A stretch of DNA of 39,335 nucleotides. Origin: Candidatus Shikimatogenerans bostrichidophilus (GTDB taxonomy: Bacteria > Bacteroidota > Bacteroidia > Flavobacteriales > Blattabacteriaceae). Below the pieces are notes generated by a model. The model saw only the letters and a program-made list of their open reading frames with translations. It made no database searches and had not been told where the DNA came from. How positions within the stretch are numbered: position 1 is the stretch's first letter; each line of letters begins with the position of its first letter. The translations under genes were made by a program, and so were the position numbers. Of this stretch, positions 3,488-33,344 are shown piece by piece. The DNA lies in NCBI GenBank assembly GCA_029851365.1, contig CP099832.1, positions 84,285 through 123,619 of the forward strand, in the 5' to 3' direction.

Positions 3488-4717
3488 ATGAAAAAAATAG
3501 AGTTATTATCACCAGCTGGTAATTATGATAGTTTATATGCAGCCATAAATTCTGGAGCTGATTCAATTTATTTTGGTGTAGAACAATTAAATATGAGAGC
3601 ATTGAGTAGTAATTTTTTAATTAAAGATATTAAAAAAATATCTAATATATGTAATAGATTTAATATTAAAAAATATATTACATTAAATACTATTATATAT
3701 GATAATGATATATTGTTAGTAAAAAAAATTTTAAATTATTCTAAATTATATAATATAGATGGAGTTATAGCTATGGATAATTTTGTTATAAGATATGCTA
3801 ATAAATTAAAAATACCTGTACATATATCTACTCAATTAAATATAACTAATTTAGAAACATTAAAATTTTATAGTAAATATTCTGATATAATAGTATTAAG
3901 TAGAGAATTAAATTTAAATCAAATTAAATTTATATGTGATTCTATAAAAAAAAATAAAATTAAAGGACGGTTTAATAAATTAATTAAAATAGAAATGTTT
4001 GCACATGGTTCATTATGTATGGCTATATCAGGTAAATGTTATTTAAGTTTACATTCAGATAATTCATCAGCCAATAGGGGAGCTTGTAAACAAAATTGTA
4101 GAAGAGAATATACAGTAAAAGATTACAATAATAATAGTTATAAAATAGAAAATAAATATATTATGTCTTCTAAAGATCTTTCTACTATAAATTTTTTAGA
4201 TAAAATTATAAATACAGGTATTAGTATATTAAAAATAGAGGGAAGAGGTAAATCACCAGAATATGTTAGTGTAGTAACTAAATGTTATAAAGAAGCTATA
4301 GAATCGATATATAATAATAATTATACTTATAATAAAATAAAAAAATGGGAAAAAGAAATAAAAAAAGTATATAATAGAGGATTTTGGTCAGGTTATTATT
4401 TAGGTAAAAATATAGGAGAATGGACTAATAAAAGTGGTTCTAGTTCATTATATAAAAAAATTTATATAGGTATAGTTAAAAATTATTTAGATAAAAAATC
4501 TATAATGATAGTATTAATAAATTCATATGATATAAAAATTAATGATTATATATATATAATAGGTAATAAAATAGGAGTAAAAATTATGAAAATAAAAGAA
4601 TTATATAATGAAAAAAAAAATAAAGTAAATATTATTAAGAATGGTAATATATGTACTATAAAAACTAATTTTAGAGTATATAAATATAATAAAATATATA
4701 AAGTTATAAAAAATTAA
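3488..4717 (+). CDS. Peptidase U32 family protein, likely RNA hydroxylase (TrhP-like)
   Basis: The protein begins KKIELLSPAGNYDSLYAAI, the typical U32 N-terminus, and carries the family signature around residues 170-205: EMFAHGSLCMAISGKC and RGACKQNCRREY, with the four cysteines that hold a 4Fe-4S cluster. U32 proteins are named as peptidases, but characterised bacterial members (TrhP/YegQ, RlhA, UbiU/V) are O2-independent hydroxylases, TrhP making 5-hydroxyuridine at tRNA position 34 with prephenate as the reported hydroxyl source. At 409 residues it is close to TrhP length. A ferredoxin gene follows after 1 base, which suggests a shared electron or cluster supply. Which RNA it modifies cannot be told from sequence; TrhP-like is favoured because the rest of the genome retained tRNA modification. 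Confidence 0.85.
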   Translation: MKKIELLSPAGNYDSLYAAINSGADSIYFGVEQLNMRALSSNFLIKDIKKISNICNRFNIKKYITLNTIIYDNDILLVKKILNYSKLYNIDGVIAMDNFVIRYANKLKIPVHISTQLNITNLETLKFYSKYSDIIVLSRELNLNQIKFICDSIKKNKIKGRFNKLIKIEMFAHGSLCMAISGKCYLSLHSDNSSANRGACKQNCRREYTVKDYNNNSYKIENKYIMSSKDLSTINFLDKIINTGISILKIEGRGKSPEYVSVVTKCYKEAIESIYNNNYTYNKIKKWEKEIKKVYNRGFWSGYYLGKNIGEWTNKSGSSSLYKKIYIGIVKNYLDKKSIMIVLINSYDIKINDYIYIIGNKIGVKIMKIKELYNEKKNKVNIIKNGNICTIKTNFRVYKYNKIYKVIKN

Positions 4718-4718
4718 T

Positions 4719-4949
4719 ATGTTATCGATTATATATAATAGAAAAAAATGTATAGGATGTAGCAATTGTGTTTTAGTTAATCCATTATATTTTATAATGT
4801 CTAAATTAGATGGTAAATCTATATTATTAAATTCTATTAATAAAAATGGTATTTATACATTAAAATTAATAAATAATATAAATTATAAATATATAATAAA
4901 ATCTGTTAAAGTATGTCCTGTAAAAATAATAAAAATAATAAAATATTAA
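4719..4949 (+). CDS. Small 4Fe-4S ferredoxin
   Basis: A 76-residue protein with CIGCSNC at residues 11-17 and a distal CPVKI near residue 67, the four-cysteine layout of a single 4Fe-4S ferredoxin. It is 1 base downstream of the U32 gene on the same strand, so the two are probably one transcript and one functional unit, with the ferredoxin giving electrons to the U32 enzyme or to MiaB, the other Fe-S enzyme here. The last 4 bases overlap the convergent glnS end. Its partner is inferred from position only. Confidence 0.88.
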   Translation: MLSIIYNRKKCIGCSNCVLVNPLYFIMSKLDGKSILLNSINKNGIYTLKLINNINYKYIIKSVKVCPVKIIKIIKY

Positions 4950-9015: not shown

Positions 9016-10083
9016 TTATATTACTAATAATAAATCACCATATATATTAAATTTATAATTATTATTTATTGCTTCATTATATATATAATTAATATATTTA
9101 CCACATAAATTATATAGGACCATAAAATTATTAGTATTAGGATTATTAAAATATGTTAATAATGAATTTATTTTTTTATATTTATATAGATAATCTATAT
9201 TATTATTTAAATATCCATTGTATTCAATAATATTATATTTTATAGATATTAAATTTTCTATAGCTTTTAAAGTATTAATACCTATACAACAAATATTATT
9301 AAATTTTTTATTTTTTATTTTTTTTAACTCTTTATTTAAAATTATTAATTTTTCATTATTGAAAGGTTTTTTTTTAAATTTTTTATTATATGTTTTATTT
9401 AGTTGATTATAACTTAAATGATAAGTAATTTTAAAAATATTTACATTTTTTAATTTTAATTTTAACAAAATATTTTTATCTATATATGCTCCAGAAGTAG
9501 GAAATATAATAGAACCAATTTTTTTTGAATATGAATTCTCATAATATTTATTTGATATATCATAATGTTTTTTAGTAAATGTATGTAATAAAAATTTACC
9601 AGATGGGAAAAATTTTTTTTTAAATAAAAAATTATTACGTTCATATAAAAATTTTAATATTCTACCTTTAGATGTTGTATTATTTAATACTTCTGATGTA
9701 ATAATATCATTTTTATTAATTTTAAAAAATAATTTATTACCTATTCTAACTTTTCTAGCAGGATTAACTAATACATCCCATATATTTTCTTTACTATTTA
9801 TTTCTTTTTTTAAATATATATCTATATATGATTTAATGTTATTTTTTATTTTATATGCTTTATATTTTATTGGATAAGCTTTACTATCATTAATAATTAT
9901 AAGATCATTTTTATTAAAATATTTATCTAAATTTATTATTTTATCATGTATTATTTCTTTATTTTTTTTATTAAATATCATTAGTTTAGGAATATCATAT
10001 ATTTGAGGATATCTTGTTATTATTCTGTTTTTAAAATTATTTATATTAATATTTATATTATGTATTGTATCTAATTTATACAT
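9016..10083 (-). CDS. queA: QueA-like S-adenosylmethionine:tRNA ribosyltransferase-isomerase, degenerate
   Basis: QueA moves the ribosyl group of SAM to 7-aminomethyl-7-deazaguanine at tRNA position 34 (queuosine path). The middle is clearly flavobacterial QueA: WDVLVNPARKVRIGNKLFF and NNTTSKGRILKFLYE, with IINDSKAYPIKYKAY at the N-terminal barrel and YKFNIYGDLLLVI at the end. The length (355) is normal. However, motifs that are nearly constant in the family are altered: PTAGLHF appears as PTSGAYI, the LHVGxGTF stretch as YHLSYNQLN, and GTTSxRALE as GINTLKAIE. The gene is open throughout, so it is either decaying, retained for another task, or simply very fast evolving. tRNA-His and tRNA-Asn in this window are Q-type substrates. 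Confidence 0.82.
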   Translation of the reverse strand: MYKLDTIHNINININNFKNRIITRYPQIYDIPKLMIFNKKNKEIIHDKIINLDKYFNKNDLIIINDSKAYPIKYKAYKIKNNIKSYIDIYLKKEINSKENIWDVLVNPARKVRIGNKLFFKINKNDIITSEVLNNTTSKGRILKFLYERNNFLFKKKFFPSGKFLLHTFTKKHYDISNKYYENSYSKKIGSIIFPTSGAYIDKNILLKLKLKNVNIFKITYHLSYNQLNKTYNKKFKKKPFNNEKLIILNKELKKIKNKKFNNICCIGINTLKAIENLISIKYNIIEYNGYLNNNIDYLYKYKKINSLLTYFNNPNTNNFMVLYNLCGKYINYIYNEAINNNYKFNIYGDLLLVI

Positions 10084-11976: not shown

Positions 11977-12049
11977 GGGGAATTAGCTTAATTGGTAGAG
12001 CATCTGTTTTGCATGCAGAAGGTTAACGGTTCAATTCCGTTATTCTCCA
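11977..12049 (+). tRNA. tRNA-Ala (TGC)
   Basis: Second spacer tRNA. Acceptor GGGGAAT/ATTCTCC (one G-T pair), anticodon loop TTTGCAT on TCTGT/GCAGA gives TGC, discriminator A, no CCA. It is the substrate of the shortened alanyl-tRNA synthetase at 15292-16569; I did not single out the G3:U70 identity pair beyond the wobble in the acceptor stem. Confidence 0.96.
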
Positions 12050-15154: not shown

Positions 15155-15293
15155 AAAAAAAAAGATTAAATAGGTTGTTTATAGGAATAATAATCACCTC
15201 TTACCATACCGAACAGAGAAGTTAAAATTATTCACGCTGATGGTACTAATTTATAAATTGGAAGAGTAAGTACAGCCCATTTAATCTTTTTTT
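15155..15293 (+). terminator. Stem enclosing 5S and ending in a T-tract
   Basis: An A9-GA run before 5S is complementary to TC-T7 after it, extending helix I by about nine pairs and leaving a run of seven T at 15287-15293. This is the natural end of the rRNA operon, serving as processing stem, terminator or both. The same T-tract contains the stop codon of convergent alaS, so termination in both directions is packed into a few bases. Confidence 0.5.
15166..15284 (+). rRNA. rrf: 5S ribosomal RNA
   Basis: Contains the conserved ACCGAACAGAGAAGTTAA and GATGGTACT, with helix I formed by TTAAATAGGTTGT and ACAGCCCATTTAA (13 pairs including wobbles). Length 119 is normal. The ends were set on helix I. 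The pairing continues outward into an A-tract and a T-tract (see the terminator entry). Confidence 0.93.
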
Positions 15294-16569
15294 ATAATTC
15301 AATATCTTTTTTTACTTCTATAAATTTATCTATTTTAATTTTATTTTTAAGTGAAATTTTTTTTAATATGAAATAATATATACCATATGTTGAATATATA
15401 TATATAATTTTATCTTTATTTAAATATTTAATTTTATTTTTTTTTAAATATAATAACATTAATTTTATATTTTTATTTATACTAATAAAATAAAATATTT
15501 CTTCTTCTTTTAATTTATTTTTAATTAAAATAATTTTATCTTGATTTTTTTTTTTAAAAATAATTTTATATACTGTAGATACTAGTTTAAATAAAAATGG
15601 TTGTTTATTATTTAATATTTTATATCTATATATTAAACATCTTCTTATTATTTTTCTTAATACATATCCATATTTATTATTATTAGGATAAATTTTATTA
15701 TACATTATATAACAAATAGATCTAATATGATCAGATAAAATTTTTATTAATATATCATGTTTTTTATTTTTATTATATTTTATTTTTAATATTTTTTCTA
15801 TTTTTTTTATTATTGGTATAAATATATCTATATCATAAGTAGATTTTTTATTTTGAAGTATCATAGCTAATCTTTCTAACCCCATTCCAGTATCAATATA
15901 GTTATTAGATAATAAATTTTTATTTAATACAATTTTATTTTTTATTACTAAATATTTTATATTAACTATATTCCATAATTCTATTAAATTTTTATTATTA
16001 AAATTTATTTTTTTATATTTTTTTTTATTTATATTAATATATATTTCTGTACAAGGACCACATAAATTAAAATTATCTATTTTCCAAAAATTATTTTTTA
16101 TATTCCTAAAAAAAATTCTTTTTTTATTAATAAATTTTTTCCAATATTTATAACTCTTATAATCTTTTTTTAATAGTTTTTTTTTATCACCTTTAAAAAT
16201 AGTTATATATATATATTTAGGAGAAATTTTAAATATTTTAGTTATTAATATCCAAGAATATTGTATTGCTTTTTTAATACTATATTTACCTATAGACCAA
16301 TTACCTAACATTTCAAAATAAGTATGATGATAATTATCTATACCTACAGATTTTATATCATTAATTCTAATACATTTTTGTATATTGGCGATTTTATTAT
16401 ATTTTATTTTTTTATTATTTAAAAATAAATCTTTAAATATATTTATACCAGAATTAATAAATAATAATTTGCTATTATCTTTATTAATAATTCTAGAAGA
16501 ATTTAGTATTTTATGATTGTTTTTTTTAAAAAAATATATAAACTTTTTTTTTATTTTATTATATTTCAT
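15292..16569 (-). CDS. alaS: Alanyl-tRNA synthetase, catalytic part only (no editing or C-Ala domain)
   Basis: Class II synthetase for alanine. Family blocks: motif 1 and 2 region with HHTYFEMLGNWSIGKY (residues about 80-95), NLCGPCTEIY, the motif 3 region MGLERLAMILQNK, and the tRNA-binding helices DHIRSICYIMYN and GYVLRKIIRRC. The protein stops at 425 residues, just after the tRNA-recognition helices, where normal AlaRS continues to about 870 with an editing domain (HxxxH and CxxxH zinc residues) and the C-Ala domain. No remnant follows: 5S rRNA begins 7 bases beyond the stop. In E. coli, N-terminal fragments of about 460 residues retain aminoacylation, so it is plausibly functional but without Ser/Gly proofreading. 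Divergent from clpP with 26 bases between starts. Confidence 0.93.
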   Translation of the reverse strand: MKYNKIKKKFIYFFKKNNHKILNSSRIINKDNSKLLFINSGINIFKDLFLNNKKIKYNKIANIQKCIRINDIKSVGIDNYHHTYFEMLGNWSIGKYSIKKAIQYSWILITKIFKISPKYIYITIFKGDKKKLLKKDYKSYKYWKKFINKKRIFFRNIKNNFWKIDNFNLCGPCTEIYININKKKYKKINFNNKNLIELWNIVNIKYLVIKNKIVLNKNLLSNNYIDTGMGLERLAMILQNKKSTYDIDIFIPIIKKIEKILKIKYNKNKKHDILIKILSDHIRSICYIMYNKIYPNNNKYGYVLRKIIRRCLIYRYKILNNKQPFLFKLVSTVYKIIFKKKNQDKIILIKNKLKEEEIFYFISINKNIKLMLLYLKKNKIKYLNKDKIIYIYSTYGIYYFILKKISLKNKIKIDKFIEVKKDIEL

Positions 16570-19303: not shown

Positions 19304-20080
19304 TTTTTTTTTTTGTCTTAGTATTTCAAATAATATAATAGAAACAGATATACTTACATTAAGAGAATTAATTTTACCATACGTAGGTATATTAATATTC
19401 TTAAATATATATTTATTCCATCTTGTAGATATACCATAATTTTCATTACCAAATATTATAGCTATATTATTATAATTACAAAAATTTATTTTATATAAAG
19501 AAAAACTTTTATTTTTTTTTATACTAGTACCAAAAAAATAAAATTTTTTAGATAAATATTTAATAATATTATTAAAATCTAAAATTATTATAGGACATAT
19601 AAAAACACAACCTAGACTCGCTCTAATTATATTAGGGTTATATATATCTTTGTAATCACTAATTATTATACAACTTATAAAAGATGTAGCTTCTACTGTT
19701 CTAATAATAGCTCCTAAATTACCAGGTTTTTCTATATTATCTATAATAATTATATTATTATTTTTTTTTATTATAGATTTTATTTTATTATTATAATTAT
19801 TTTTTTTATATTTAAAAATACCTAATATACCTTCAGTATTTTTCCTATATACTATTTTATTATAATTCCTTTTATTTATATAATTAATATTTTTAAATAA
19901 TAAACTATATTTTATATTTTTTTTTATAAAGATACTTTTACATATAATTATATTAATTAATTTTAATTTACTATTTAAAGCCATCAATATTTCATTATAT
20001 CCTTCAACTATAACAATTTTTTTATTATTACGTAATTTTTTAAATTTTTGTAATTTTATTATATATTTTATATTTAACAT
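19292..20080 (-). CDS. SpoU/TrmH-family RNA 2'-O-ribose methyltransferase
   Basis: SPOUT enzyme with an N-terminal L30e-like part (IVIVEGYNEILMAL) and the three C-terminal SpoU motifs: NIEKPGNLGAIIRTVEA (motif 1, catalytic Arg and Asn), IIFGNENYGIS (motif 2) and INSLNVSISVSIILFEILRQ (motif 3). This layout (about 260 residues) fits the RlmB/TsnR-like rRNA branch more than the short TrmL type, but the exact nucleotide cannot be named. It follows the HsdR-N-like gene with a 1-base overlap, so tsaB, that gene and this one form a tight minus-strand unit. Convergent with recA. Confidence 0.88.
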   Translation of the reverse strand: MLNIKYIIKLQKFKKLRNNKKIVIVEGYNEILMALNSKLKLINIIICKSIFIKKNIKYSLLFKNINYINKRNYNKIVYRKNTEGILGIFKYKKNNYNNKIKSIIKKNNNIIIIDNIEKPGNLGAIIRTVEATSFISCIIISDYKDIYNPNIIRASLGCVFICPIIILDFNNIIKYLSKKFYFFGTSIKKNKSFSLYKINFCNYNNIAIIFGNENYGISTRWNKYIFKNINIPTYGKINSLNVSISVSIILFEILRQKKKLSY

Positions 20081-20526
20081 TATATTTTAAAATTAGTAGG
20101 TATTTCTTTGATAAAAATTATTTTATTTTTTTTTTTATAAAAAATTAAATTATTAAATTTATTAGTTAACCAATAAAATTTTATTTTCATAATACTACCA
20201 TATTTAATAATTTGATCTAAATCTATATACTTAATTTTATTTTTATATGTTTTACATTCTATTATAATATAAGGTTTATTATTATTTTTTATTAATATAT
20301 CTATTTTAAATACTTTATTTTTTATTTTTATTTTATTTTCTAAATAAATATTTGATATATCATACTTTTTTATATATATTAAATATAATAATATTTTCTG
20401 TCTAATATATTCTTCATTGGTCAATATATAATAACGTTTTCTTTTTAAACAATATATAAATTTAAATGAATTATATTTATATATTTTTACTTTTCTTATT
20501 TTAAAAAATAATAATAAATTAACCAT
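20080..20526 (-). CDS. HsdR-N-like PD-(D/E)XK nuclease-fold protein (function unknown)
   Basis: A 148-residue protein that resembles the HSDR_N_2 group, which many Bacteroidota carry as a stand-alone gene. Supporting blocks: LTNEEYIRQKILLYLI at the front, KIDILI and YIIIECKTYK in the middle (the D...ExK pattern of PD-(D/E)XK nucleases), and DLDQIIKYGSIMKIKFYWLTN plus IFIKEIP at the end. No restriction system surrounds it. It is packed between tsaB (1-base gap) and a SpoU methyltransferase (1-base overlap), so a role in RNA or DNA maintenance is more likely than defence. The family has no known function that I can name. The apparent catalytic residues are kept, which argues for activity. Confidence 0.72.
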   Translation of the reverse strand: MVNLLLFFKIRKVKIYKYNSFKFIYCLKRKRYYILTNEEYIRQKILLYLIYIKKYDISNIYLENKIKIKNKVFKIDILIKNNNKPYIIIECKTYKNKIKYIDLDQIIKYGSIMKIKFYWLTNKFNNLIFYKKKNKIIFIKEIPTNFKI

Positions 20527-24877: not shown

Positions 24878-26023
24878 ATGAAAATTATTAATTTAGATAA
24901 TGCATCAAATACAAGGATGCGTAAATATGTAATAAAAATTTATAAAAATTTATTATATGATAAATATATATCTAATCCATCTTCTTTTCATTATTTAGGT
25001 AGACATTCTAAATATTATATAGAAAAATCTAGAAAAGAAATATCTAAATTAATTAATTGTAAATCTTCAGAAATAATTTTTACATCTAGTGGAACTGAAG
25101 CTAATAATTTAATAATTAGAAGTGTAATAAATAATTATAAAATAAAGTATATAATAACATCAAAGTTAGAACATTTATCTGTATTAGAAACAATAAAAAT
25201 ATTTAATAATAGAATAAATATAATTTATATAGGTAATGATAAATTAGGTAATTTAAATTTAAATCAATTAAATTTTATTTTAAAAAGTAAAACTAATTAT
25301 AAATATAATATATTAGTTTCTATAATGGCTATAAATAATGAAATTGGAAATATAAATAATATAAAATTTATTGGTTTATTATGTAAAAAATATAATTCTT
25401 TATTTCATTCAGATTTTATTCAATTTATAGGTCATTATAAAGTAAATGTTAAAAAAATATATTGTCATTTTTTTTCTGCTAGTGCTCATAAATTTTATGG
25501 TCCACTAGGAATAGGATTTATATATAAAAAAGAAGGTTATAATTTAAAAAAATATATAACAGGAGGTAGTCAAGAATATCAAATAAGATCAGGAACAGAA
25601 AATTTATATGGTATATTTTGTATTTATTATGCTTTAAAATTATGTTATAAAAATTATATAAAAGAAAAAAGAAGAATTTTATTATTAAAAAAATATACTA
25701 TTAAATTATTAAATAAAAATATAATAAATGTAAAATATAATGGATTATCAAATAATTTAAAAAAAAGTGTATATAATATATTGAGTATAAGATTACCAGT
25801 AAAAGATGATTTATTACATATAAAATTAGATTTAATGAATATAATTGTTTCTACTGGTAGTTCTTGTTATTCTAATAATAAAAAATCATATGTGTTAAAA
25901 AATATATTAAATAGGTATATTTATAATAATACTACATCATTACGAATCTCTTTAGGAATATATAATAATAAAAGTGATATATATATTTTTGTAAGAAAAT
26001 TAAAAAAAATATTATTATGTTAA
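24878..26023 (+). CDS. iscS: Cysteine desulfurase (IscS/NifS class)
   Basis: PLP enzyme that takes sulfur from cysteine for Fe-S clusters and tRNA thiolation. INLDNASNT opens the protein; SGTEANNLIIR, SKLEHLSVLET (PLP-stacking His), SASAHKFYGPLGIGF with the PLP lysine K205, RSGTEN and the mobile active loop STGSSCYS with C330 are visible. These place it in class I (IscS-like) more than class II (SufS). 381 residues, full length. The likely clients here are MiaB, the U32 protein and the ferredoxin; SufE at 29379-29783 may be a sulfur acceptor. miaB overlaps its end by 7 bases, an apt pairing of sulfur source and methylthiolase. Confidence 0.94.
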   Translation: MKIINLDNASNTRMRKYVIKIYKNLLYDKYISNPSSFHYLGRHSKYYIEKSRKEISKLINCKSSEIIFTSSGTEANNLIIRSVINNYKIKYIITSKLEHLSVLETIKIFNNRINIIYIGNDKLGNLNLNQLNFILKSKTNYKYNILVSIMAINNEIGNINNIKFIGLLCKKYNSLFHSDFIQFIGHYKVNVKKIYCHFFSASAHKFYGPLGIGFIYKKEGYNLKKYITGGSQEYQIRSGTENLYGIFCIYYALKLCYKNYIKEKRRILLLKKYTIKLLNKNIINVKYNGLSNNLKKSVYNILSIRLPVKDDLLHIKLDLMNIIVSTGSSCYSNNKKSYVLKNILNRYIYNNTTSLRISLGIYNNKSDIYIFVRKLKKILLC

Positions 26024-27378
26024 AGAATTTTTATATTATTAATTATGGATGTCAAATGAATATTTATGATAATGAAATAATTATAAGCATATTGACTAAA
26101 AATAAATATAATTATGTAAAAGACATATTTAAAGCTGATATAATATTAATAAATACTTGTTCAATTAGAGAAAAAGCTGAAATTACTGTAATTAATAAAT
26201 TAATATATTTAAATAGTTTAAAGAAGAAAAAAAAAATTTTTATAGGTATCATTGGATGTATGGCAAGAAGAATTCAAAAATTTATAAAAATAAAAAAAAG
26301 AATAATAGATTTTATAGTAGGTCCTGATAATTATAGAGAGTTACCAAATATAATTAAATCTATAGAAGATAATAGATATTTTATTAATATATTATTATCT
26401 AATGAAGAAACTTATTCTAATATTTTTCCTAGTAAAATATATAATATTAATAAAGTTACTTCATATGTAACTATTTCAAGAGGATGTGATAATATGTGTA
26501 CTTTTTGTGTAGTACCATTTACAAGAGGTAGGGAACGTAGTAAAAGTCCTAATGTAATAATAAAAGAATGTGAAAGATTATATAATTATGGATATAAAGA
26601 AATTACTTTATTAGGTCAAAATGTTGATTCATATTTATGGACACCTGAAACACATATTAAAAAAAATATAAAAGATAAAAAAAAAGCTATTGATTTTTCT
26701 AATTTATTAGAGATAATTGCTAAAAAATTTAATAATATAAGATTTAGATTTTCGACATCTAACCCTCATGATATGTCTATAAGAGTTTTGAAAGTTATTA
26801 AAAAATATAATAATATTTGTAAATATATTCATTTACCTGTACAATCAGGTAGTAATAGGATATTAAAATTAATGAATAGAAAATATAGTAGATTAGAGTA
26901 TATAAATTTAATAGATAATATTAAAAATATTATACCAGAATGTGCTATATCTTATGATATTATTACAGGATTCTGCACTGAAACTGAAAAAGATCATATA
27001 GATACATTAAATCTAATGAAATATGTAAAATATGATTTTGGATATATGTTTATGTATTCTCATAGAGAAGGTACATATTCTTATAATAAATTAAAAGATA
27101 ATGTACCATTAATAATAAAAAAAAGAAGATTAAATGAAATAATTAAATTACAAAGAAAACATTCTTATAATAAATTAAAAAAATATATTAATACAGTTCA
27201 AAATGTTTTAATTGAAGGTGATTCTAAAAAAGATAATAATTATTGGTATGGTAGAAATTCACAAAATACATTAATAGTTTTTAAAAAGAATAATGAATCT
27301 ATAGGAGAATATGTAAATGTTAAAATTTTAAAAAATACATCTGCTACATTAATAGGAGAAAGAGAAAAAAAATATTAG
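26017..27378 (+). CDS. miaB: MiaB tRNA-2-methylthio-N6-isopentenyladenosine synthase
   Basis: Radical SAM methylthiotransferase acting on i6A37 of UNN-reading tRNAs. N-terminal cluster cysteines occur in NYGCQMN (C12), INTCSIREKAE and GCMARR; the radical SAM CxxxCxxC is C157, C161, C164 in GCDNMCTFCVVP, followed by TRGRERSK, LLGQNVDSY, HLPVQSGSN and a C-terminal TRAM domain. 453 residues, full length; both 4Fe-4S sites are intact. It overlaps iscS by 7 bases. Its activity requires MiaA, which is not in the window. It ends in TAG. Confidence 0.96.
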   Translation: MLKNFYIINYGCQMNIYDNEIIISILTKNKYNYVKDIFKADIILINTCSIREKAEITVINKLIYLNSLKKKKKIFIGIIGCMARRIQKFIKIKKRIIDFIVGPDNYRELPNIIKSIEDNRYFINILLSNEETYSNIFPSKIYNINKVTSYVTISRGCDNMCTFCVVPFTRGRERSKSPNVIIKECERLYNYGYKEITLLGQNVDSYLWTPETHIKKNIKDKKKAIDFSNLLEIIAKKFNNIRFRFSTSNPHDMSIRVLKVIKKYNNICKYIHLPVQSGSNRILKLMNRKYSRLEYINLIDNIKNIIPECAISYDIITGFCTETEKDHIDTLNLMKYVKYDFGYMFMYSHREGTYSYNKLKDNVPLIIKKRRLNEIIKLQRKHSYNKLKKYINTVQNVLIEGDSKKDNNYWYGRNSQNTLIVFKKNNESIGEYVNVKILKNTSATLIGEREKKY

Positions 27379-29370: not shown

Positions 29371-29404
29371 AACAGATTCTAATTTTTATTAATTAGAATC
29401 TGTT
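29371..29404. terminator. Perfect 14-bp hairpin between groEL and sufE
   Basis: AACAGATTCTAATT (29371-29384), loop TTTATT, AATTAGAATCTGTT (29391-29404). It is placed at the end of groEL and covers the last eight codons of convergent sufE, so it could end transcription in both directions. There is no long T-run after it on the plus strand (GTTTATT), thus it may rather protect the 3' end of the groESL mRNA. Confidence 0.6.
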
Positions 29405-29783
29405 GTTTATTAAATGCAAATTCTTTTATTTTTTTTATTATTCTTAAATAACCGATATATTTATTAATAGAAATAAAATTATTAAATTTTATTTTATTAA
29501 ATAAATCATTTTTATTATTAAGTATATAGTCAATAGTTTTATTAGAATAATATTTAATAATTAAATATATTATTCCATTAATTATTTTAGAATCAGATTT
29601 ACCTTTTATATATATTTTATTATTTTTATAATAAATATAAATCCAAAGTTTAGTTAAACATTTTTTAATTAAATTATTTTTATTTTTTAATTTATTAGAT
29701 AATTTAGGTAATTTTTTACCTATATTAATTAAAAAGTTATAAATATTTTTATTTTTTATTTTTTTTAAAATTTTATAATACAT
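29379..29783 (-). CDS. sufE: SufE sulfur acceptor
   Basis: SufE takes persulfide sulfur from a cysteine desulfurase and hands it to the SufBCD scaffold. Family blocks: YNFLINIGKKLPKL at residue about 15, NLIKKCLTKLWIYI with the acceptor Cys C42, SDSKIINGIIYLIIKYYS, and a C-terminal NKYIGYLRIIKKIKEFA (family: SxxRxNGLxxMIxxIK). Length 134 is normal. It is divergent from lepA with only 6 bases between the two start codons. Its C-terminal codons are inside the hairpin shared with groEL. SufB, C, D are not in the window. Confidence 0.88.
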   Translation of the reverse strand: MYYKILKKIKNKNIYNFLINIGKKLPKLSNKLKNKNNLIKKCLTKLWIYIYYKNNKIYIKGKSDSKIINGIIYLIIKYYSNKTIDYILNNKNDLFNKIKFNNFISINKYIGYLRIIKKIKEFAFNKQQILINKN

Positions 29784-31680: not shown

Positions 31681-31682
31681 AT

Positions 31683-31758
31683 CGGGGTGTAGCGTAGCCT
31701 GGATAATCGCGCCTGGTTTGGGACCAGGAGATCATAAGTTCAAATCTTATCACCCCGA
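31683..31758 (+). tRNA. tRNA-Pro (TGG)
   Basis: Acceptor CGGGGTG/CACCCCG, anticodon loop TTTGGGA on CCTGG/CCAGG giving TGG, T-loop TTCAAAT, discriminator A, no CCA. Only 2 bases separate it from tRNA-Ser. Confidence 0.95.
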
Positions 31759-31766
31759 TATAATAT

Positions 31767-32288: not shown

Positions 32289-33344
32289 TTATTTCAATTG
32301 AATTTCTATAGATTTTTTATGAATTATATCAAATAAATTTTGAATATAGTTATCATCTATATCTAAAAGATTACAAATTTTTTTATAATATTTTTTTAAA
32401 TCCAACATTTTTTCTTTTTGTATAATTTCAATATTATTTTTTTTTTTAATTTTACCTATATCTTTAGAAGTATTTAATCTATTTTTTAATAGATAAATTA
32501 TATTTTTATCTATTTCTAATATATTAGTTCTATATAAATCTAATTTATTTAATTTATTTTTTTTTTTATTTATAAATATTTTATTTAAAATATTAGTTAA
32601 GTTTTTAGGAGTTATTTGTTGATTTGCATCACTTAAAGCATTATCCGGATCTATATGTGTTTCTATCATTAATCCATCATATCCAAAGTTAATAGCTTTT
32701 TTAGATATTTCATAAATTAACTTTCTATTACCAGTTATATGTGATGGATCACATATTATAGGTATATTTGGATATTTATTTTTTATATTTACTACTTCTA
32801 ACCAACAAGGTATATTACGATATGTTTTACTAGGATAAATTGTGAAACCTCTATGAATTATACCTATATTAAATATATTTTTATTTACTAATCTTTCTAC
32901 ACCACCTAACCATAAATTAATATCTAATGATAAAGGATTTTTTATAAGTACTATTTTCTTTGTGTTACTTAATGAATTGGCTATTTCTTCTATTGTAAAA
33001 GGATTACAAGTACTTCTTGCACCTATCCATAATATATCTATATCATATTTTAAAGCTATTTCAGCTTGTTCTTTATTAGCTATTTCTGTAGATATTAAAA
33101 TATTATATTTTTTTTTAGCTTTTAATAACCATTTTAAACCTATTTCCCCAACTCCTTCAAACATACCTGGTTTAGTTCTAGGTTTCCATATACCCGCTCT
33201 AAATACTTCTACATAATCTTTATTTATATATTTAATAGTATTCATAATTTGTGACTCATTTTCAGCACTACATGGTCCTGCAATTATAAATGGATAAGAA
33301 AATTTATTTATCCATTTATAATTAATTTTTTTTAATAAATTCAT
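32289..33344 (-). CDS. aroG: Bifunctional DAHP synthase / chorismate mutase
   Basis: N-terminal DAHP synthase (residues 1-260, Bacteroidota type I-beta with the AroQ fusion): FIIAGPCSAENESQIM, RAGIWKPRTKPGMFEG, LWIGARSTCNPF, LIKNPLSLDINLWLGG, CDPSHITGNR, GLMIETHIDPDNALSDANQ. C-terminal chorismate mutase (about 265-351): LDLYRTNILEIDKNIIYLLKNRL with IGKIKKKN, showing the AroQ Arg and Lys residues. It condenses PEP with erythrose 4-phosphate and also turns chorismate to prephenate, so one protein makes both ends of the shikimate route. It is the only biosynthetic enzyme for a metabolite in the window, so it probably represents the symbiont's service to its host. It stands alone between convergent smpB and def. 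Confidence 0.95.
   Translation of the reverse strand: MNLLKKINYKWINKFSYPFIIAGPCSAENESQIMNTIKYINKDYVEVFRAGIWKPRTKPGMFEGVGEIGLKWLLKAKKKYNILISTEIANKEQAEIALKYDIDILWIGARSTCNPFTIEEIANSLSNTKKIVLIKNPLSLDINLWLGGVERLVNKNIFNIGIIHRGFTIYPSKTYRNIPCWLEVVNIKNKYPNIPIICDPSHITGNRKLIYEISKKAINFGYDGLMIETHIDPDNALSDANQQITPKNLTNILNKIFINKKKNKLNKLDLYRTNILEIDKNIIYLLKNRLNTSKDIGKIKKKNNIEIIQKEKMLDLKKYYKKICNLLDIDDNYIQNLFDIIHKKSIEIQLK

Follow-up and report, generated by a model that had tools for sequence, protein, structure and literature searches.

Gene content of the locus

The DNA analysed here (39,335 nucleotides, referred to as the window) is part of the single-contig, 184,356-bp genome of Candidatus Shikimatogenerans bostrichidophilus, which carries 27 tRNA genes. 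Closed genomes of these symbionts of bostrichid beetles, which possess the shikimate pathway up to prephenate, have an average GC content of 15.1% (PMC10284843). On the forward strand (3488–4717), the window encodes a short-type U32 protein of 409 amino acids, which reached 213.9 bits against the Pfam family Peptidase_U32 (PF01136, gathering cut-off 22.4 bits) and is proposed here to be a prephenate-dependent tRNA U34 hydroxylase. It is followed on the same strand by the gene of a single-cluster [4Fe-4S] ferredoxin of 76 amino acids (4719–4949; Fer4_15, 32.4 bits, cut-off 22.4 bits), the putative partner of the U32 protein. As already described in the first-pass annotation of this DNA, one base separates the stop codon of the former gene from the ATG of the latter.

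The sequence identity of the U32 protein over five sister strains (70–73%) exceeds that of the neighbouring tRNA synthetases (about 49–63%) and is similar to that of the DAHP synthase/chorismate mutase (67–76%), which argues against a chance open reading frame. The latter enzyme, a DAHP synthase fused to a chorismate mutase (CM) and the putative source of prephenate, is encoded on the reverse strand (32289–33344, PF00793 and PF01817; CM domain at about 32298–32549). Furthermore, the window contains genes for the Fe-S/sulfur-transfer factor SufE (29379–29783, reverse strand; PF02657, 87.5 bits), for a class-V aminotransferase, which is a probable cysteine desulfurase (24878–26023, forward strand; PF00266), and for a MiaB-type methylthiotransferase, an Fe-S tRNA modifier (26017–27378, forward strand; UPF0004, Radical_SAM and TRAM domains).

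Four other genes, all on the reverse strand, showed peculiarities. A QueA-like gene of the queuosine pathway (9016–10083; substrate preQ1-tRNA) is retained despite the genome size of 184 kb. The DUF2797 protein (2536–2955) aligns to just the last 60% of its family profile, differs in length between strains and is possibly in erosion. A 148-aa protein (20080–20526) with a match to HSDR_N_2, the N-terminus of the type I restriction R subunit, also has a homologue in strain G002. The alanyl-tRNA synthetase (15292–16569, 425 aa) aligns to positions 1–413 of the 552-position class II (A) profile and, judged from this alignment, is apparently shortened at the C-terminus.

Residues and fold of the U32 protein

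In an alignment to TrhP (YegQ) of E. coli, the residues E169, C177, C184, C200 and C204 of the window protein (encoded at 3992–4099, forward strand) correspond to E162, C170, C177, C193 and C197, all of which are identical. E162, C170 and C177 are required in E. coli TrhP (PMC6599085). The five positions are the same in RlhA and in all short and long U32 proteins of Bacteroidota that were aligned, and the set was invariant in 18 relatives as well as in a second set of 40 sequences. The earlier statement that the four Fe-S cysteines are kept was therefore confirmed; together with the essential glutamate, they give the protein the predicted active site of a U32 RNA hydroxylase of the TrhP or RlhA kind.

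The C-terminal part (residues 322–408, 4451–4711, forward strand) most probably forms a beta-barrel similar to the Peptidase_U32_C domain of TrhP. In the AlphaFold2 model of the protein (mean pLDDT 78.8, low near the cluster), this domain superimposed in Foldseek on the C-terminal domain of a Geobacillus U32 protein (4he6/4he5) with an rmsd of 1.0 and a TM-score (target) of 0.84–0.90. The Pfam match to Peptidase_U32_C was weak (16.7 bits) and below the threshold, so that the domain is recognized in the predicted model and not by the sequence profile alone. A search of solved structures by sequence gave no match. YrrO reportedly shares a C-terminal motif with TrhP (Sakai et al., PMC6599085), and the modelled barrel resembles the domain of YrrO (TrhP2) from Bacillus and Geobacillus; however, YrrO works with a second U32 protein (YrrN), whereas the system in the window consists of a single U32 protein and a ferredoxin.

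Placement among TrhP, RlhA and UbiU

The best NCBIfam model for the window protein was TrhP (NF011996), which also gave the best E-value across the 18 short U32 members; the score of 167.6 bits is, however, far below the curated equivalog cut-off of 534 bits. UbiU followed as the second-best model (141.9 bits). The amino acid identities to the E. coli proteins were 32% (TrhP), 33% (RlhA) and 30% (UbiU). In the phylogenetic tree, RlhA grouped with the long Bacteroidota U32 proteins (L002–L004, 605–632 aa; support 100/99) and apart from the clade of the short-type proteins. The comparison with the three characterised enzymes, which had been suggested before, thus set RlhA apart and did not resolve the placement of TrhP and UbiU, owing to long branches. 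Orthology to TrhP was rejected, as the curated cut-off was missed and the tree did not settle the position of TrhP and UbiU. By its sequence, the window protein belongs to a Bacteroidota-specific subfamily, which is related to TrhP and, by the curated test, is not a TrhP orthologue.

The ferredoxin as part of a conserved unit

The ferredoxin possesses the motif CxxCxxC...CP, the four cysteines of which were the same in each of 18 sequences compared. At the level of the order, the ferredoxin gene adjoined the U32 gene in all 18 short-type loci, whereas the three long U32 genes of the order occur without a neighbouring ferredoxin. In the larger set, 186 of 212 short-type loci showed this adjacency; those without the ferredoxin belong mostly to separate Bacteroidales-type lineages. 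The pair also occurs in Flavobacterium johnsoniae (L194). A profile search in 40 relatives detected the ferredoxin in exactly the genomes that have a short U32 gene, which confirms the co-loss of these two genes, one part of the test suggested in the first-pass annotation. In G010, a 1.3-Mb relative of the same family, U32 and ferredoxin are both pseudogenes, and the loss of the pair is caught in progress there. These observations show that the U32-ferredoxin pair is an old Bacteroidota unit, which is real and conserved and in the window most probably functional, and that the ferredoxin belongs with the U32 protein.

TrhP of E. coli lacks a ferredoxin encoded next door. Its YfhL ferredoxin is reportedly needed for ho5U formation and would be the counterpart of the window protein, as both are small Fe-S proteins for which cooperation with a U32 hydroxylase is proposed; YfhL, however, is longer (86 aa), has more cysteines and is encoded away from the U32 gene.

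Directly 3' of the ferredoxin gene, a YhbP-family protein is encoded in 13 loci. The E. coli member of this family, YhbP, is encoded near ubiTUV and carries an FMN-binding annotation; the neighbour might serve the ferredoxin as a flavoprotein reductase. A 569-aa recurrent neighbour of U32 loci was discarded; it is merely an antisense frame of the U32 gene.

Chorismate mutase and the supply of prephenate

The DAHP synthase/chorismate mutase reported before at this position was verified by both domains, and its CM domain retains R11, R28, K39, S84 and Q88 of E. coli PheA. Of the catalytic residues, only E52 is replaced, by Met; this position is occupied by Trp or Leu in other Bacteroidota CMs that were aligned. 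Since prephenate dehydratase was detected in none of the genomes of the symbiont genus (with masked sequence in G003, in G007 and, to some extent, in G008), prephenate represents the end of the path in the symbiont.

In a sample of 396 genomes of the class Bacteroidia, CM_2 was found in 109 of the 114 genomes with a short U32 and in 227 of the 282 genomes without it (Fisher p = 8e-5, uncorrected for kinship). Among the five short-U32 genomes lacking CM_2, G087 and G393 yet have a prephenate dehydratase, as does G199, whose CM gene is truncated at the edge of a contig; in G386 and G405, neither CM_2 nor prephenate dehydratase was matched. A weak CM match in G386 (E = 0.005) was rejected, as the sequence is unlike a chorismate mutase. 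Relatives with a U32 gene and no source of prephenate, which the first-pass annotation had named as evidence against the link, were absent from the symbiont family, in which no genome with U32 lacks a chorismate mutase; at the level of the class, G386 and G405 are possible counter-examples.

A CM gene adjoins the U32-ferredoxin pair in 11 loci. Seven of these are stand-alone CMs immediately 5' of the pair and in the same orientation, one is a ThiF-like fusion, and three are divergently oriented, longer CMs. The adjacent gene was the sole CM_2 match of its genome in eight of nine cases from the class sample, and the catalytic residues are retained in those CMs that were aligned. By our estimate, chance adjacency of a single-copy gene in a genome with thousands of genes would account for about 0.1 of these loci. 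Because the arrangements differ, it is suggested that the adjacency arose more than once. In the fusion (L324:4295-5374, reverse strand), whose gene immediately precedes the U32-ferredoxin pair, the CM is joined to a ThiF/MoeB-like adenylyltransferase, which is an unusual combination. No report of CM or TrhO genes adjacent to U32, nor of YfhL with YegQ, was found in a literature search, and the Bacteroidota version of the unit and its gene neighbourhood appear to be undescribed. The earlier idea that prephenate is the likely co-substrate agrees with the neighbouring CM genes of related loci and with a symbiont that produces prephenate and lacks a dehydratase that would consume it.

Evidence for tRNA U34 as the probable target

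TrhO (match of 264 bits, cut-off 170 bits) is encoded directly beside U32-ferredoxin in 15 loci, 12 times upstream and three times downstream. This enzyme is an O2-dependent tRNA U34 hydroxylase, and TrhP and TrhO represent redundant routes to ho5U34 in E. coli (PMC6599085). In the symbiont genome, the Ala, Pro, Thr, Val, Ser-UCN and Leu-CUN boxes each have one U34 tRNA, and these are the same six boxes as those of the E. coli TrhP and TrhO targets. They make up 14% of the codons of the window, and 54% of these end in U. Two of the proposed ho5U34 substrates are encoded in the window on the forward strand, the sole tRNA-Ala (UGC, 11977–12049) and the sole tRNA-Pro (UGG, 31682–31759).

The first-pass annotation had left the choice between tRNA wobble and rRNA hydroxylation. 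As RlhA groups with the long U32 proteins and the adjacency of TrhO indicates U34, the tRNA part of this proposal is favoured and the rRNA part is disfavoured. Its designation of the protein as a hydroxylase rather than a protease is supported by the retained Glu and Cys residues and by the CM and TrhO neighbours in related loci.

Loss of U32 and ferredoxin in the symbiont family

In G002, the shortest strain, U32 and ferredoxin are gone, and tRNA-Asn and glnS are separated by only about 100 bp of sequence free of genes and of N. This strain retains the DAHP synthase/chorismate mutase and aroC. It also lacks MiaB and SufE and keeps the cysteine desulfurase (L366, G002:C1:104500-118500, and L249), whereas five other strains retain all of these genes. 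The loss of U32 in G002, a single event, accompanied a shrinking Fe-S system inside a single symbiont species and not a loss of prephenate. U32 was further absent from all 49 Blattabacterium-like genomes, of which the six tested possess a CM, and from G013, for which the check for masking covered the first 20 kb. Since U32 was lost in these lineages, it is dispensable. G014 lacks U32, CM, DAHP synthase and aroC, but this is one lineage and masking of the sequence is possible. G003 and G007 seemed at first to have lost U32 along with the shikimate pathway; this was dismissed, as their sequences, in the parts examined, consist of N beyond about 80 kb. The sequence of G008 is partly masked.

A co-loss of U32 and ferredoxin with the chorismate mutase, for which a test had been suggested, did not hold, as G002 and the Blattabacterium-like genomes keep the CM without U32. 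Likewise, the suggestion that retention of the CM is tied to translation is contradicted by G002. Prephenate may permit U32, but U32 does not explain why the chorismate mutase is retained. The dependence is plausibly one-way: U32 would need prephenate, whereas provisioning of the host would be the reason why the symbiont retains it.

Alternative explanations

An RlhA-type enzyme forming ho5C in 23S rRNA, as RlhA does at position 2501, would likewise depend on prephenate and an Fe-S cluster. It belongs to the same family, has the same essential residues and is slightly more similar to the window protein than TrhP is, but the long U32 proteins with which RlhA groups have no ferredoxin and either reside in different genomes or represent an additional copy, whereas the short protein has a predicted C-terminal domain like that of TrhP and YrrO and, in related loci, TrhO as a neighbour. 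This makes an rRNA target unlikely. A different substrate, for example a quinone as for UbiU/UbiV or a protein, or even a function as protease, has a rather slim chance. The second rank of the UbiU model, the family name, which derives from peptidase activity, and the YhbP-type neighbours, whose E. coli counterpart lies near ubiTUV, speak for it; however, the genome encodes a single U32 protein and no UbiV partner, the fourth cysteine, which is missing in UbiU, is present, no canonical protease site was identified, and the CM and TrhO neighbours indicate prephenate and tRNA.

The ferredoxin might also be a general electron carrier that merely lies beside U32. The radical-SAM enzyme MiaB encoded in the window needs electrons, and G002 lost MiaB along with the pair. 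Such a role is nevertheless improbable, considering that the ferredoxin was restricted to short-U32 genomes among the 40 relatives and adjoins U32 in most loci. Least of all is it to be expected that U32 and translation are the reason why the symbiont retains its chorismate mutase. The absence of CM-less U32 genomes from the symbiont family would fit this explanation, but the CM persists without U32 in G002 and in Blattabacterium-like genomes, provisioning of the host is enough to explain it (PMC10284843), and the seeming joint losses in G003 and G007 come from masked sequence.

Proposed function and significance

We consider U32 and ferredoxin most likely to be a Bacteroidota-type prephenate-dependent tRNA wobble hydroxylase (probability about 0.7). 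The U32 protein would carry an Fe-S cluster bound by its four cysteines and convert U34 to 5-hydroxyuridine, with prephenate as the oxygen donor or co-substrate, while the adjacent ferredoxin probably supplies the electrons and the C-terminal beta-barrel may assist in tRNA binding. The likely substrates are the six U34 tRNAs mentioned above, each of which alone reads a whole four-codon box, and the prephenate would originate from the symbiont's own DAHP synthase/chorismate mutase. With TrhP, this enzyme would share the U32 domain, the essential residues, the C-terminal domain, the codon boxes and, as proposed, the use of prephenate and the U34 target; with RlhA, it would share the U32 core, the Cys set and the dependence on prephenate.

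There is about an even chance that this is one case of a distinct Bacteroidota unit for prephenate-dependent wobble hydroxylation, consisting of U32 and a single-cluster ferredoxin, which in some lineages has an operon-encoded chorismate mutase of its own for RNA modification instead of Phe and Tyr formation, and that the beetle symbiont has one prephenate pool common to the host cuticle and its own decoding.

The hydroxylation chemistry is already known from E. coli. The gene orders CM-U32-ferredoxin and TrhO-U32-ferredoxin point to cultivable species that would allow direct tests of whether this as yet unassigned U32 subfamily depends on prephenate, what its ferredoxin does and which tRNA it modifies. 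If the proposed function is true, two genes of a 184-kb genome are still devoted to a single wobble modification, and prephenate, which is exported, would double as a cofactor for the symbiont's own translation.
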